A program made the translations under genes and the position numbers. Below, piece by piece: positions 21,429 to 55,404 of a stretch of DNA of 64,000 nt (position 1 is the stretch's first letter; each line of letters begins with the position of its first letter). Under the pieces are notes generated by a model. It ran no database searches, was not told where the DNA came from, and was given only the letters and a program-made list of their open reading frames with translations. The stretch comes from Flavobacterium enshiense. GTDB lineage: Bacteria; Bacteroidota; Bacteroidia; Flavobacteriales; Flavobacteriaceae. The stretch covers positions 868,001-932,000 of the forward strand of contig NZ_CP090376.1 of the NCBI RefSeq assembly GCF_022836875.1. Direction: 5' to 3'.

Positions 21429-23327
21429 ATGAGCGACGCTTTAAAACACGAGTGTGGCATTGCACTTTTAAGATTGAAAAAGCCATTGGAATTCTACAAA
21501 GAAAAATATGGCACCGCTTTTTACGGGGTACAGAAAATGTACCTTTTAATGGAAAAACAACACAATCGTGGTCAGGACGGAGCAGGTCTTGCCAGTATTA
21601 AACTGGATATGGAACCCGGAGAACGCTACATCAGCCGTGTGCGTTCCAATCAGGCGCAGCCTATTCAGGATATTTTCGCACAAATTAATCAGCGTATCAA
21701 TGAAGAGTTGAAACAGAATCCTGAATACCAGGATAATGTTGCGCTTCAGAAAGAGAACGTTCCCTATATTGGCGAATTGTTTTTAGGGCACGTTCGTTAC
21801 GGGACTTTCGGTAAAAACAGCATAGAAAGTGTACACCCGTTTTTGCGTCAGAACAACTGGATGCACCGTAATCTGATTGTGGCCGGAAACTTCAATATGA
21901 CTAACGTTAAAGAGCTTTTCCAGGATTTGGTACGTTTAGGTCAGCATCCGAAAGAAATGGCAGATACCGTTACGGTAATGGAGAAAATTGGCCATTTCCT
22001 TGATGATGAAGTTGATGAATTGTATAAGGATTGTAAAAACGAAGGTTTAAGTAAAAGAGAAGCTTCTCCGGTTATTGCTGAGAGATTGGATGTAGGAAGA
22101 ATTTTAAGAAGAGCTTCCAAAAACTGGGATGGTGGTTATGCCATGGCTGGATTATTAGGTCACGGAGACGCTTTTGTAACACGTGATCCGGCTGGAATCC
22201 GTCCGGCTTTCTACTATCAGGATGATGAAATCGTAGTAGTAGCTTCGGAAAGACCGGTTATCCAAACCGTTTTCAATGTTCCTTTCGAATCCATTCAGGA
22301 AATCACACCGGGACATGCTATTATCGTTAAAAAAGACGGTCGTGTAATCGACGAACAAATTCGCGAAGCCTTACCGTTGAAAGCCTGTTCTTTTGAAAGA
22401 ATCTATTTCTCCCGAGGAAGTGATGCCGAAATTTATCAGGAGCGTAAGGATTTAGGTAAATTAATCATGCCGGCGGTTTTAGAAGCCGTTGAAAATGATA
22501 CGGACAATACTGTATTTTCTTACATTCCGAATACGGCAGAAACTTCGTTCTACGGAATGGTTGAGGCAGCCAATGATTTCCTTAACCAACGTAAGATCAA
22601 CGATATTTTAGCGAATAAAGAGTCGCTTTCGGCTGAAAAATTACAGAAAATTTTATCAGTGAAATTGCGCTCGGAAAAAATCGCCATTAAAGACGTAAAA
22701 CTGAGAACGTTCATTACGGAAGACAGTAGCCGCGATGATATGGTGGCACACGTGTATGACGTAACGTACGGCGTAGTGAAACCAACAGATAATCTTGTTA
22801 TTATCGATGACAGTATAGTTCGTGGAACTACCTTGCAGAAAAGTATCATCAAAATGATGGACCGATTACAGCCTAAGAAATTAGTGATTGTTTCTTCGGC
22901 GCCGCAAATCCGTTATCCGGACTGTTACGGTATCGATATGGCAAAATTGGAAGGATTAGTTGCGTTTCGTGCGGCAATGGAATTGTTGAAAGAACGTAAT
23001 TTAATGCATATTGTTGAAGACGTTTATAAGAAGTCTAAGGCGCAAGAGAATTTCCATGACAGTGAAGTGGTGAATTACGTGAAAGAAATTTACGATCCAT
23101 TCACGGATCAGGAAATCTCCGATAAAATTGCGGAGATGCTAACGGAAAGTTCGGTAAAAACAGAAGTGAAAATTATCTTCCAGACGGTTGAAAATTTACA
23201 TACTGCTTGTCCTAAAAATTTAGGAGACTGGTATTTTACAGGAAATTATCCTACAGATGGCGGTAATCGCGTGGTAAATCGTGCCTTCATGAACTACTAT
23301 GAAGGTAAAGACGCTCGCGCTTACTAA
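21429..23327 (+). CDS. purF: Amidophosphoribosyltransferase, long form
   Basis: Catalyses the first committed step of purine synthesis, PRPP plus glutamine to phosphoribosylamine. The N-terminus MSDALKHECGIALL indicates an eight-residue propeptide cleaved before the nucleophile C9. The class II glutaminase domain (LGHVRYGTFG, GNFNMTN) is followed by a phosphoribosyltransferase domain with PRPP loop VIIDDSIVRGTTLQKS. At 632 residues it is over 120 longer than E. coli or Bacillus PurF. The extra sequence includes a segment around residues 70-115 in the glutaminase domain and inserts before the PRPP loop, as in other Bacteroidota. It ends upstream of the duplicated RNA-like elements. Confidence 0.94.
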   Translation: MSDALKHECGIALLRLKKPLEFYKEKYGTAFYGVQKMYLLMEKQHNRGQDGAGLASIKLDMEPGERYISRVRSNQAQPIQDIFAQINQRINEELKQNPEYQDNVALQKENVPYIGELFLGHVRYGTFGKNSIESVHPFLRQNNWMHRNLIVAGNFNMTNVKELFQDLVRLGQHPKEMADTVTVMEKIGHFLDDEVDELYKDCKNEGLSKREASPVIAERLDVGRILRRASKNWDGGYAMAGLLGHGDAFVTRDPAGIRPAFYYQDDEIVVVASERPVIQTVFNVPFESIQEITPGHAIIVKKDGRVIDEQIREALPLKACSFERIYFSRGSDAEIYQERKDLGKLIMPAVLEAVENDTDNTVFSYIPNTAETSFYGMVEAANDFLNQRKINDILANKESLSAEKLQKILSVKLRSEKIAIKDVKLRTFITEDSSRDDMVAHVYDVTYGVVKPTDNLVIIDDSIVRGTTLQKSIIKMMDRLQPKKLVIVSSAPQIRYPDCYGIDMAKLEGLVAFRAAMELLKERNLMHIVEDVYKKSKAQENFHDSEVVNYVKEIYDPFTDQEISDKIAEMLTESSVKTEVKIIFQTVENLHTACPKNLGDWYFTGNYPTDGGNRVVNRAFMNYYEGKDARAY

Positions 23328-23380
23328 AAATCTTACAAAATTACCTTTCGTCGATTTTATGTGCGTTTCGTCAGTTTTTT

Positions 23381-23411
23381 TTGATAGATGAAGAGCATCG
23401 CGATACATTCG
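23381..23411 (+). promoter_or_regulatory. Promoter-like element of RNA copy 1
   Basis: TTG at 23381-23383, a 20-base spacer, and TACATTCG at 23404-23411. This differs from TAnnTTTG by one base (TTCG). The same arrangement is present 212 bp downstream before copy 2, although the spacer bases differ. Confidence 0.6.
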
Positions 23412-23413
23412 TA

Positions 23414-23487
23414 CTACCATAGCATTAGTAGGTTAAGTTTATGGTAGATTTGGGGCAAAAAGGGTGGAAGCAATTCCACCTTTTTTA
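23414..23487 (+). ncRNA. Putative small RNA, copy 1 of a tandem pair
   Basis: The segment 23416-23485 is identical over 70 bases to 23628-23697. It can form a 5' hairpin, CTACCATA (23414-23421) with TATGGTAG (23440-23447), then a single-stranded linker with TTTGGGGCAAAAA, and a terminator hairpin GGTGGAA-GCAA-TTCCACC followed by six T. With the promoter-like element ending at 23411 this predicts a transcript of about 70-75 bases. It could also act as the purF terminator. I cannot match it to a known RNA family. Confidence 0.55.
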
Positions 23488-23592
23488 TTTTGGTCAATTT
23501 TTATATTTAAAGAATATTTTTTTACTGATTGAAGGATTGCTGCTATCTGAAAATGTACTTCGTCGAAAAAAAATGTAGTATATCTGATTTAT

Positions 23593-23623
23593 TTGAAAGG
23601 GAAATATAGTCGCCATAAATTCG
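23593..23623 (+). promoter_or_regulatory. Promoter-like element of RNA copy 2
   Basis: TTG at 23593-23595, a 20-base spacer, and TAAATTCG at 23616-23623. Spacing is identical to copy 1, but the spacer sequence has diverged, so the boxes look selectively kept. Confidence 0.6.
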
Positions 23624-23625
23624 TA

Positions 23626-23698
23626 TCACCATAGCATTAGTAGGTTAAGTTTATGGTAGATTTGGGGCAAAAAGGGTGGAAGCAATTCCACCTTTTTA
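23626..23698 (+). ncRNA. Putative small RNA, copy 2 of a tandem pair
   Basis: Identical to copy 1 from 23628 to 23697. At the base of the 5' hairpin CT is replaced by TC, which leaves one wobble and one mismatch while the inner six pairs (ACCATA/TATGGT) stay intact. The terminator hairpin with its GCAA loop is unchanged and is followed by five T. The next gene, sodA, converges and has its own terminator. Confidence 0.55.
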
Positions 23699-23727
23699 TT
23701 TTTAGGAAAAATCGCGGAAATCCATAA

Positions 23728-23755
23728 AAAAAGAGAACCAATTGGTTCTCTTTTT
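23728..23755 (-). terminator. Terminator of sodA
   Basis: A perfect 28-base palindrome centred on GAACCAATTGGTTC with A-rich and T-rich ends. It sits 25 bp downstream of the sodA stop and could act in both directions. Confidence 0.85.
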
Positions 23756-23779
23756 GTTTATCAAAGTATTGTGAAATTC

Positions 23780-24385
23780 TTATTTCGCAGCTGCGTATCT
23801 TCTTGCAACTTCTGCCCAGTTAATTACGTTGAAAAAAGCCTCAATATAATCCGGTCTTCTGTTTTGGTAGTTTAAGTAGTATGCGTGCTCCCAAACGTCC
23901 ATTCCTAAAATAGGCTGACCACCGCAAGGTACTCCCGGCATGATTGGATTGTCTTGGTTTGGCGTAGAACAAACCTCCAATTTACCGTCTTTCACACACA
24001 ACCAAGCCCATCCTGAACCAAAACGGGTTGCTCCGGCTTTAGCAAATTCTGCTTTGAATTGTTCGAAAGAACCAAAAGCCGTGTTGATAGCCTCAGCTAA
24101 CTCACCTGTAGGAAGGCCTCCGGCATTTGGAGCCATGATTTCCCAAAACATAGTGTGGTTGTAGTGTCCGCCACCGTTGTTACGAACTGCCATATTGTTC
24201 ATGTCAAGATTTTTAAGGATATCCTCGATAGATTTTCCTTCTAAATCTGTTCCGGCAATAGCGGCATTTAAGTTGGTGATATAAGCGTTGTGGTGTTTTG
24301 AATGGTGGATTTCCATTGTTCTTGCATCAATATGAGGCTCCAAGGCGTCATATGCATATGGTAACTGTGGTAATTCGAATGCCAT
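23780..24385 (-). CDS. sodA: Superoxide dismutase, Mn/Fe family
   Basis: The 201-residue enzyme dismutates superoxide to hydrogen peroxide and oxygen. Metal ligands are H27 (EIHHSKHH), H77 ([11 protein letters not shown]), and the Asp and His of MDVWEHAYY near residues 163-167. The glutamine in PNQDNP is placed as in manganese enzymes, so a Mn or cambialistic enzyme is likely, but sequence alone does not fix the metal. It has no signal peptide, so it should be cytoplasmic. A TATTTTTG -7 box lies about 45 bp upstream of the start on the minus strand. Confidence 0.95.
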
Positions 24386-49131: not shown

Positions 49132-49227
49132 GGGCGTTCCCACAAGGGTCGGGCTTTCCGCTGTATCTTTTGTTCCTCTCGTAAAAAACGAGATCCACAA
49201 AAGGATGCCGCTGCAATCCCTAACGCA
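49132..49227. repeat. Intergenic hairpin element A, upstream of lepA
   Basis: The element is bounded by GGCGTT and AACGC arms. Inside, GCTGTATCTTTTGT pairs with ACAAAAGGATGCCGC, and the core is TCTCGT (49177-49182) with ACGAGA (49188-49193). Base composition is much richer in G+C than the flanks. From memory, similar CCGCT-hairpin-CCGCT elements are scattered through Flavobacteriaceae genomes; I cannot verify this here. It may lie in the lepA leader. Confidence 0.6.
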
Positions 49228-49328
49228 ATCTATGGTTGTCTTTGAATTACCTGACAGCCACTGGCTGTCCTCCTCTTAATATCAAATCTAACGCGCATCA
49301 CGACTCATAAAGGTAGTGAATTAATCGG

Positions 49329-55191: not shown

Positions 55192-55264
55192 ACTGCAAAA
55201 ATACGATTTTTTTAAGTTAAATGAGAAGAAGCGAACGGACAGTGTGTTTTTTGCAGTCCATTTT

Positions 55265-55335
55265 CCTGCTATCGCTCATAGTCCCGTCTCGTTAAAAAAA
55301 ACGAGACGGGAGCTAATCCGCTCTATCAGGGCTAT
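55265..55335. repeat. Intergenic hairpin element B, between rbfA and mce
   Basis: TCCCGTCTCGTT (55282-55293) and AACGAGACGGGA (55300-55311) make a perfect 12-bp stem around AAAAAA. Outer segments CCTGCTATCGCTC and CCGCTCTATCAGGG resemble the flanks of element A at 49.1 kb in layout. It lies between divergent genes. Confidence 0.6.
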
Positions 55336-55404
55336 GGGAAAAACCATTTTATTTTTTGTAAACATTGTAAAAACTTTGCGAACTTTGCGGCTCAATAAAA
55401 AGAT

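Follow-up and report, generated by a model that had tools for sequence, protein, structure and literature searches.

A tandem small RNA family between purF and sodA in Flavobacteriaceae and its candidate antisense targets among CAP lipoprotein genes

The purF–sodA locus of Flavobacterium enshiense

The window analysed here is a 64,000-nt stretch of the genome of Flavobacterium enshiense, a single contig of 3.25 Mb. Between the genes that an initial annotation had named purF and sodA, the window carries two copies of a 121-nt unit with 86% identity and a start-to-start register of 212 bp (Table 1). No other full copies are present in the genome. The two units share an exact run of 70 nt (23416–23485 and 23628–23697); outside this run, in the same register, only 49 of the 100 bases on the upstream side and 12 of the 40 on the downstream side agree. 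The initial annotation had described precisely this arrangement, i.e., 70 identical bases in two copies 212 bp apart, with an unchanged core in heavily drifted flanks.

Both copies consist of the ACCATA/TATGGT arms of a possible 5′ hairpin, the sequence TTTGGGGCAAAAA, and a terminator stem-loop, GGGTGGAA-GCAA-TTCCACC, followed by six T in copy 1 and five in copy 2, the same GCAA-tetraloop terminator that had first been noted. The 71-nt RNA predicted for copy 1, within the 70–75 nt initially proposed, is calculated to fold into two hairpins with a free energy of −21.6 kcal/mol (z = −3.3), a value equalled by one of 200 shuffled sequences. Conserved promoter boxes fall within the stretch that the initial annotation had delimited, from 23347 onward, and are absent from its description.

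Table 1. Features of the purF–sodA locus, with positions in the window
Feature	Position	Strand	Basis
purF, conserved upstream neighbour	21429..23327	+	ORF; name as in initial annotation; synteny
Copy 1 upstream box 1, TTCGTC	23347..23352	+	pattern match G000:C1:891347-891373; box consensus
Copy 1 upstream box 2, TTCGTC, 20 bp past box 1	23367..23372	+	pattern match; box consensus
Copy 1 −7-like element TACATTCG, cf. TAnnTTTG	23404..23411	+	TAnnTTYR-type element in 250/288 genus copies
sRNA copy 1, predicted transcript of ~71 nt	23416..23486	+	sequence, fold; R1 model 102.5 bits
Copy 1 conserved putative antisense core (ACCATA...TTTGGGGCAAAAA)	23416..23461	+	column conservation, 378 distinct RNAs; pairs with target starts in relatives
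Copy 1 intrinsic terminator, GCAA loop and six T	23462..23486	+	sequence; helix covarying in relatives
Copy 2 upstream box 1, TTCGTC	23559..23564	+	sequence; box consensus
Copy 2 upstream box 2, TATATC, degenerate	23579..23584	+	sequence; box consensus
Copy 2 −7-like element TAAATTCG	23616..23623	+	sequence; TAnnTTYR-type consensus
sRNA copy 2, predicted transcript of ~70 nt	23628..23697	+	sequence; R1 model 101.3 bits
Copy 2 conserved putative antisense core	23628..23673	+	column conservation; identical run
Copy 2 intrinsic terminator, GCAA loop and five T	23674..23697	+	sequence; helix covarying in relatives
sodA, conserved downstream neighbour	23780..24385	−	ORF; name as in initial annotation; synteny

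At Rfam gathering thresholds, the whole window contains one tRNA and two Flavo-1 RNAs, and no family reaches its gathering score at either sRNA copy, in agreement with the initial view that the RNA had no family assignment. Flavo-1 (RF01705, cut-off 42 bits), which had been named as the first family to consider, is also a small RNA of Flavobacteria that occurs twice in the window, but its matches lie only at 49143–49235 and 55258–55337, both on the minus strand (54.2 and 44.4 bits), so it is excluded at this locus. A permissive search of positions 22900–24100 (E up to 5) gave 19 sub-threshold matches; these include FopS on both copies, discussed below, and do not include Flavo-1.

Distribution and conservation of the RNA

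The two copies belong to an sRNA family that is present in one to five tandem copies, mostly between purF and sodA. A covariance model, R1, built from 47 sequences and 82 positions, matches 322 of 397 genomes of the Flavobacteriaceae at E ≤ 0.01 and 309 of them strongly, at E ≤ 1e-8; the weaker matches in the remaining 13 may be terminators or target sites (see below). Using BLAST with 60 relatives, matches at E ≤ 1e-10 were obtained in 28 of 37 genomes of the genus (the window genome included), with no comparable match outside it. Within the genus, R1 scores at least 58 bits in 30 of the 37 genomes, and the next best score is 42 bits. A class-level search found matches at E ≤ 0.001 in 10 of 295 genomes, six of them from the same genus; the four outside it (L170–L173; G and L labels denote genomes and loci) resemble gene-end terminators and were rejected as homologues. 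The exact core pattern occurs in no viral contig, and a phage origin was rejected.

When named genomes were scanned for the exact core, at least 120 loci were returned, mostly carrying Flavobacterium or Flavobacteriaceae names. Some of the 120 listed are titled as other Bacteroidota, and there is one Lentimicrobium MAG and one Chryseobacterium. Because they were selected by exact core, these loci are uninformative on core variation. Their surroundings agree with the location first described: among the 120 listed, purF lies upstream in 111, sodA lies downstream on the opposite strand in 94, and both are present in 90, these being incomplete counts for some loci that end close to the RNA. Both neighbors also flank the RNA in 24 of 29 further loci from the genus and 22 of 27 from other genera. 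Copy number in the 120 listed loci is one in 38, two in 50, three in 18, four in 13, and five in a single case.

To describe the sequence constraint, we collected 394 distinct copies, 288 from the genus and 106 from other genera, having dropped copies at locus edges or containing N; 378 distinct RNAs were used. In these, 38 of 46 core columns are ≥96% identical, compared with 34–42% for the four bases preceding the core, although the core figure is inflated because many loci were selected by core similarity, and the sample as a whole is skewed toward conserved members (named loci by exact core, the remainder high-scoring). The pattern AGTAGGTTAAGTT(T)YATGGTA(A)GATTTGGGGC is present in 101 of the 106 copies from other genera. 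The few variable core positions lie mainly just 5′ of AGTAGG, together with a T/C position ahead of ATGG. A diverged group from two genomes (L033, L034) keeps TTAGTA, GGTA, and TTTGGGG with a changed 5′ arm. In two other loci (L020, L029), the second copies end in unrelated terminator stems.

The RNA had initially been described as structured, and covariation in relatives divides this claim. For the terminator helix it holds, with six of eight pairs changed on both sides, i.e., compensated. The 5′ hairpin, by contrast, is predicted in the window copies and has 91.5% of its alignment cells paired, but only one sequence carries a double change, at a single pair, and the RNAalifold consensus of 47 relatives does not contain this hairpin. 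The broader claim, selection acting on an RNA, is supported, because the core is kept in hundreds of genomes while flanks drift, synteny is maintained, and promoter-like sequence is conserved as well.

Upstream boxes and lipoprotein start regions

Upstream of the predicted sRNA promoter lie direct repeats of the type GCATTYATCT, 20 bp apart. In 105 upstream regions there are 67 pairs of TTYRTC-like half sites at 20-bp spacing, compared with 0.13 per spacing after shuffling. In the 394-copy set, which overlaps the set from which the box definition was derived, box pairs at a spacing of 20 or 21 bp precede 224 of 288 genus copies (222 of them at 20 bp) and 63 of 106 others; shuffled sequences give 2.5 and 1.4, respectively. 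An element of the type TAnnTTYR is found in 250 and 70 copies, respectively (shuffled, 29.9 and 10.8), and box pair and −7-type element occur together in 192 of the 288 and 38 of the 106. Instead of the box pair, thirteen genus copies and none of the others carry a different upstream motif (...CATTTGCCTATCATCCCAATATA...), a sign of a possible second input. Copies of this type include L029:1686-1768, L182, L193, L218, L248, and L280.

The arrangement of two direct repeats resembles LytTR-type operators. In E. coli, the YpdB operator is likewise a direct repeat, of GGCATTTCAT, upstream of a promoter, with copies 21 bp apart in the oligonucleotide printed in the available part of PMC4847170; there the repeat is bound by YpdB, whereas here a LytTR protein is the candidate binder. 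Across 13 genomes, the box pattern has 97 matches, compared with 67 for a reversed control, and this only modest enrichment means that single matches need care. The matches include sRNA promoters, a LytTR regulator gene, and genes for secreted-looking surface proteins. In the regulator, a LytTR domain is recognised at E of about 1e-15 (PF04397), alongside a weakly matching receiver domain; boxes lie upstream of its gene in three loci that were read (G003, G004, G007). Homologues with ≥73% identity are encoded 3.6–4.6 kb from the sRNAs in six genomes (G003, G005, G007, G010, G017, G019); the window genome has no homologue of this linked regulator at E ≤ 1e-20. A small gene downstream of the boxed LytTR gene encodes a secreted-looking peptide made of repeat units (L106, L109, L124). 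It looks like a multi-unit peptide precursor; in L106, for example, LVGTQSTGGNKKVD is repeated. In the window genome, outside the window, box matches near 273181 (L133) and 843209 (L135) precede genes for secreted-looking proteins, so a regulon beyond the sRNA is possible.

Candidate targets came from a subset of the weak R1 and BLAST places in genomes of the genus, 33 of which were read. At the first, L137, both boxes are present, and the opposite strand is a gene start region complementary to the sRNA. In total, 12 such sites were found at 10 loci in 9 of 37 genus genomes (G003, G004, G005, G013, G017, G019, G021, G025, G030), and 23 of the 33 places lack a target site; a search that starts, as here, from weak similarity to the sRNA model favors near-perfect sites. 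All 12 reach the AUG of mutually similar lipoprotein-like genes, and because these genes are paralogous, the sites do not represent 12 independent events. One target protein was scanned in full and proved to be of the CAP type (PF00188, E 1.7e-11). Used as a query, it matches 1986 proteins at E ≤ 0.001; of the 120 listed, those with names are mostly annotated as Flavobacterium “CAP domain-containing protein”.

The predicted duplexes between each of the 12 sites and an sRNA of the same genome have free energies of −41.0 to −52.3 kcal/mol, with z scores of −6.1 to −11.0; the means for shuffled duplexes are −17.2 to −21.0 kcal/mol. Four duplexes that were drawn comprise 36–40 pairs from about −41 to +4 relative to the start codon and involve the whole core, including its 5′ end. 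The target sites read approximately TTTGCCCC(AC)AATCTACTTTAAA, and the longest invariant stretch in the 12-site alignment is TTTGCCCC, inside the pairing region; conservation also extends in part to the first codons. Box pairs are present in 8 of the 12 target promoters, compared with 0.34 expected from dinucleotide shuffles, and all nine target-bearing genomes also encode the sRNA. Throughout 3.8 Mb of analysed DNA, read on both strands but not an unbiased sample, above-threshold matches to the antisense core are sRNA genes or target sites.

Several features of the target loci are worth recording. Three genomes (G017, G019, G021) each carry two target-bearing CAP genes, and a contig end is close to some genes of this kind (L137, L417, L421), which suggests that they belong to multi-copy gene sets. 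The target-site CAP lipoprotein loci include L137, L411, L412, L417, L421, and L436. The 5′ UTR of the G013 target gene (L437) holds, upstream of its main site, an additional partial one.

In the window genome, an R1 search at E ≤ 0.01 finds the two sRNA copies and no target site, and of the 30 genus genomes that carry the sRNA, 21 show no target among the weak places read. Near-matches in the window genome (L077, L079, L080, L085) and short matches (L003, L004, L005) gave no convincing target. Searches with short seeds showed no enrichment at gene starts: AAATCTACCATRAA has 116 matches in the window genome (131 for the reversed control), and TTTGCCCCAAATD has 32 in the 37 genomes (22 for the control). 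Thirty of these 32 places were read; the motif was located in 27 of them, and no gene start recurs. Neither seed matches the candidate targets, which read approximately TTTGCCCC(AC)AATCTACTTTAAA.

Proposed mechanism, alternatives, and related RNAs

We favor, with a probability of about 0.7, a model in which the RNA is a LytTR-activated, multicopy, trans-acting antisense sRNA that would block translation of co-regulated lipoprotein mRNAs; in this model, both the transcription of the RNA and the repression are what we infer. Each copy would be its own transcription unit, as its conserved sequence suggests. A LytTR-type activator would bind the two direct repeats upstream of a putative Bacteroidota housekeeping-type promoter, and an RNA of ~70 nt would be made, ending at the intrinsic terminator. 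The conserved core would then act as a trans-acting antisense element. In relatives, it would pair with positions of about −41 to +4 of CAP-type (YkwD/SCP-like) lipoprotein mRNAs, covering the start codon. Start regions in Bacteroidota are not known to rely on Shine-Dalgarno pairing, and covering the AUG and the preceding bases is therefore a plausible way to block initiation; the complementarity is visible in the sequences, and a translational block would be its expected effect. In some related species, then, the sRNA probably turns down production of surface lipoproteins. Most target genes share the promoter boxes of the sRNA, and the three components (activator, sRNA, and target) would thus constitute an incoherent feed-forward loop, in which tandem copies may raise the dose or mix inputs. 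The RNA may have the same role in F. enshiense.

It is rather improbable that the core is mainly a protein-binding site, for an RRM or other RNA-binding protein or for a regulator that the tandem copies titrate, with pairing being secondary or lineage-specific. Such a site would fit with the equal conservation of the core in genomes where no target was found, the window genome included, with a 5′ part in which sequence is conserved rather than pairing, and with the RRM protein encoded in the window genome. However, a protein site alone does not predict complementarity that spans the whole core, including the 5′ end, in nine genomes, and the promoter boxes common to target and sRNA speak against it too.

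Still less probable is an RNA of the FopS/GibS type known from Bacteroides (RF04319), which would act through a short single-stranded seed at SusC-type start codons with the RRM protein RbpB as partner. According to the accessible portions of PMC11697453, FopS acts near start codons from a reported housekeeping-type promoter, the promoter here being predicted from sequence; for FopS-10, initiation block by start-region pairing was proposed from in vitro translation. Both RNAs are multicopy sRNAs of Bacteroidota with a conserved 5′ stretch followed by a terminator, a single RRM_1 match is found in the window genome, and the FopS model weakly matches both copies (21.8 and 20.6 bits). These scores are far below the 56-bit gathering cut-off, and FopS exceeds that cut-off in none of 148 genomes of the phylum, nine of which have weaker matches; as a control, the cut-off was reached in one of 14 named genomes, Bacteroides ihuae. 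The local similarity to FopS is not significant, being equalled by 91 of 2000 shuffles of the family core and 1104 of 2000 of the window core, and the tandem arrangement at purF–sodA is a further difference. Lastly, pairing is no stronger for 25 SusC-type starts, taken from nine genomes, than for 41 window genes (means of −15.5 and −16.6), with the genus core used throughout and only some loci coming from the window genome; the signal here is instead at the CAP lipoprotein starts of relatives, with which the whole core can pair.

We give almost no weight to a non-regulatory origin, whether by duplication of terminators, as a repeat element, or as a short reading frame (ATGGTAGATTTGGGGCAAAAA, read as MVDLGQK): each unit does lie between genes and close with a terminator, and MVDLGQ can be read from an ATG in most copies, but the window genome has just two copies, viral contigs lack the exact core, the units carry promoter-like sequence, L033 and L034 have ACG instead of ATG, and a peptide in the core was rejected because third positions of codons vary as little as the other two, the frame is shifted in some relatives by an additional A behind ATGGTA, and peptide readings diverge past the core.

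The antisense model has partial parallels among other RNAs. Qrr and LhrC also comprise several near-identical sRNAs per genome; the RNA described here differs in that its targets seem to share its operator and pairing runs along the whole core. Both Qrr and LhrC are named in the available text of PMC11697453. In F. psychrophilum, RNA-seq revealed 85 new RNAs, among which Rfp11, 13, 15, and 18 are structured and conserved in other species (PMC9723704, available in part), and the Rfp RNAs thus resemble the present family in being sRNAs conserved past the species level, there found by RNA-seq. The same excerpts describe differences: the third stem-loop of Rfp18 is said to pair with metalloprotease mRNAs, and Rfp11, at 182,564, has an ECF-type promoter. 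The sodA gene of that F. psychrophilum strain is THC0290_0164, as given in the accessible part of PMC5682007, and interpolation from locus tags places it near 200 kb, not far from Rfp11; one Rfp RNA of about that number may therefore be the window RNA. F. psychrophilum has no record among the 120 named loci listed. For F. columnare, candidate sRNAs are given in a supplement, according to the portion of PMC5395568 at hand. The string TATGGTAGATTTGGGG was not found in the paper texts searched; reported Flavobacterium sRNA sequences sit in supplements, where the transcript may be listed. Among the papers searched, none joins Flavobacterium, sRNA, purF, and sodA.

A larger proposal, which we consider unlikely at present, is a family-wide signaling circuit in which the LytTR regulator, encoded in some genomes near the sRNAs and followed by the repeat-unit peptide gene, switches on both the sRNAs and their lipoprotein targets. 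If true, this circuit would be a Flavobacteriaceae counterpart of the peptide and quorum-sensing circuits that act via tandem sRNAs.

Among base-pairing sRNAs of Bacteroidota, those with a studied function are mainly from gut Bacteroides. The same emphasis is the tenor of PMC11697453, as far as its available sections go. The RNA described here is nearly universal across a family that is very large and mainly environmental, no Rfam entry covers it at gathering score, and it is accompanied by a candidate activator site and a testable class of targets. A trans-encoded RNA that pairs almost completely with members of a paralogous gene family would be unusual and, if the proposed targets are true, its pairing would come close to the completeness seen with cis-encoded antisense RNAs. 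What had appeared as a row of intergenic repeats may thus be recast as a regulatory circuit that can be tested in Flavobacterium.
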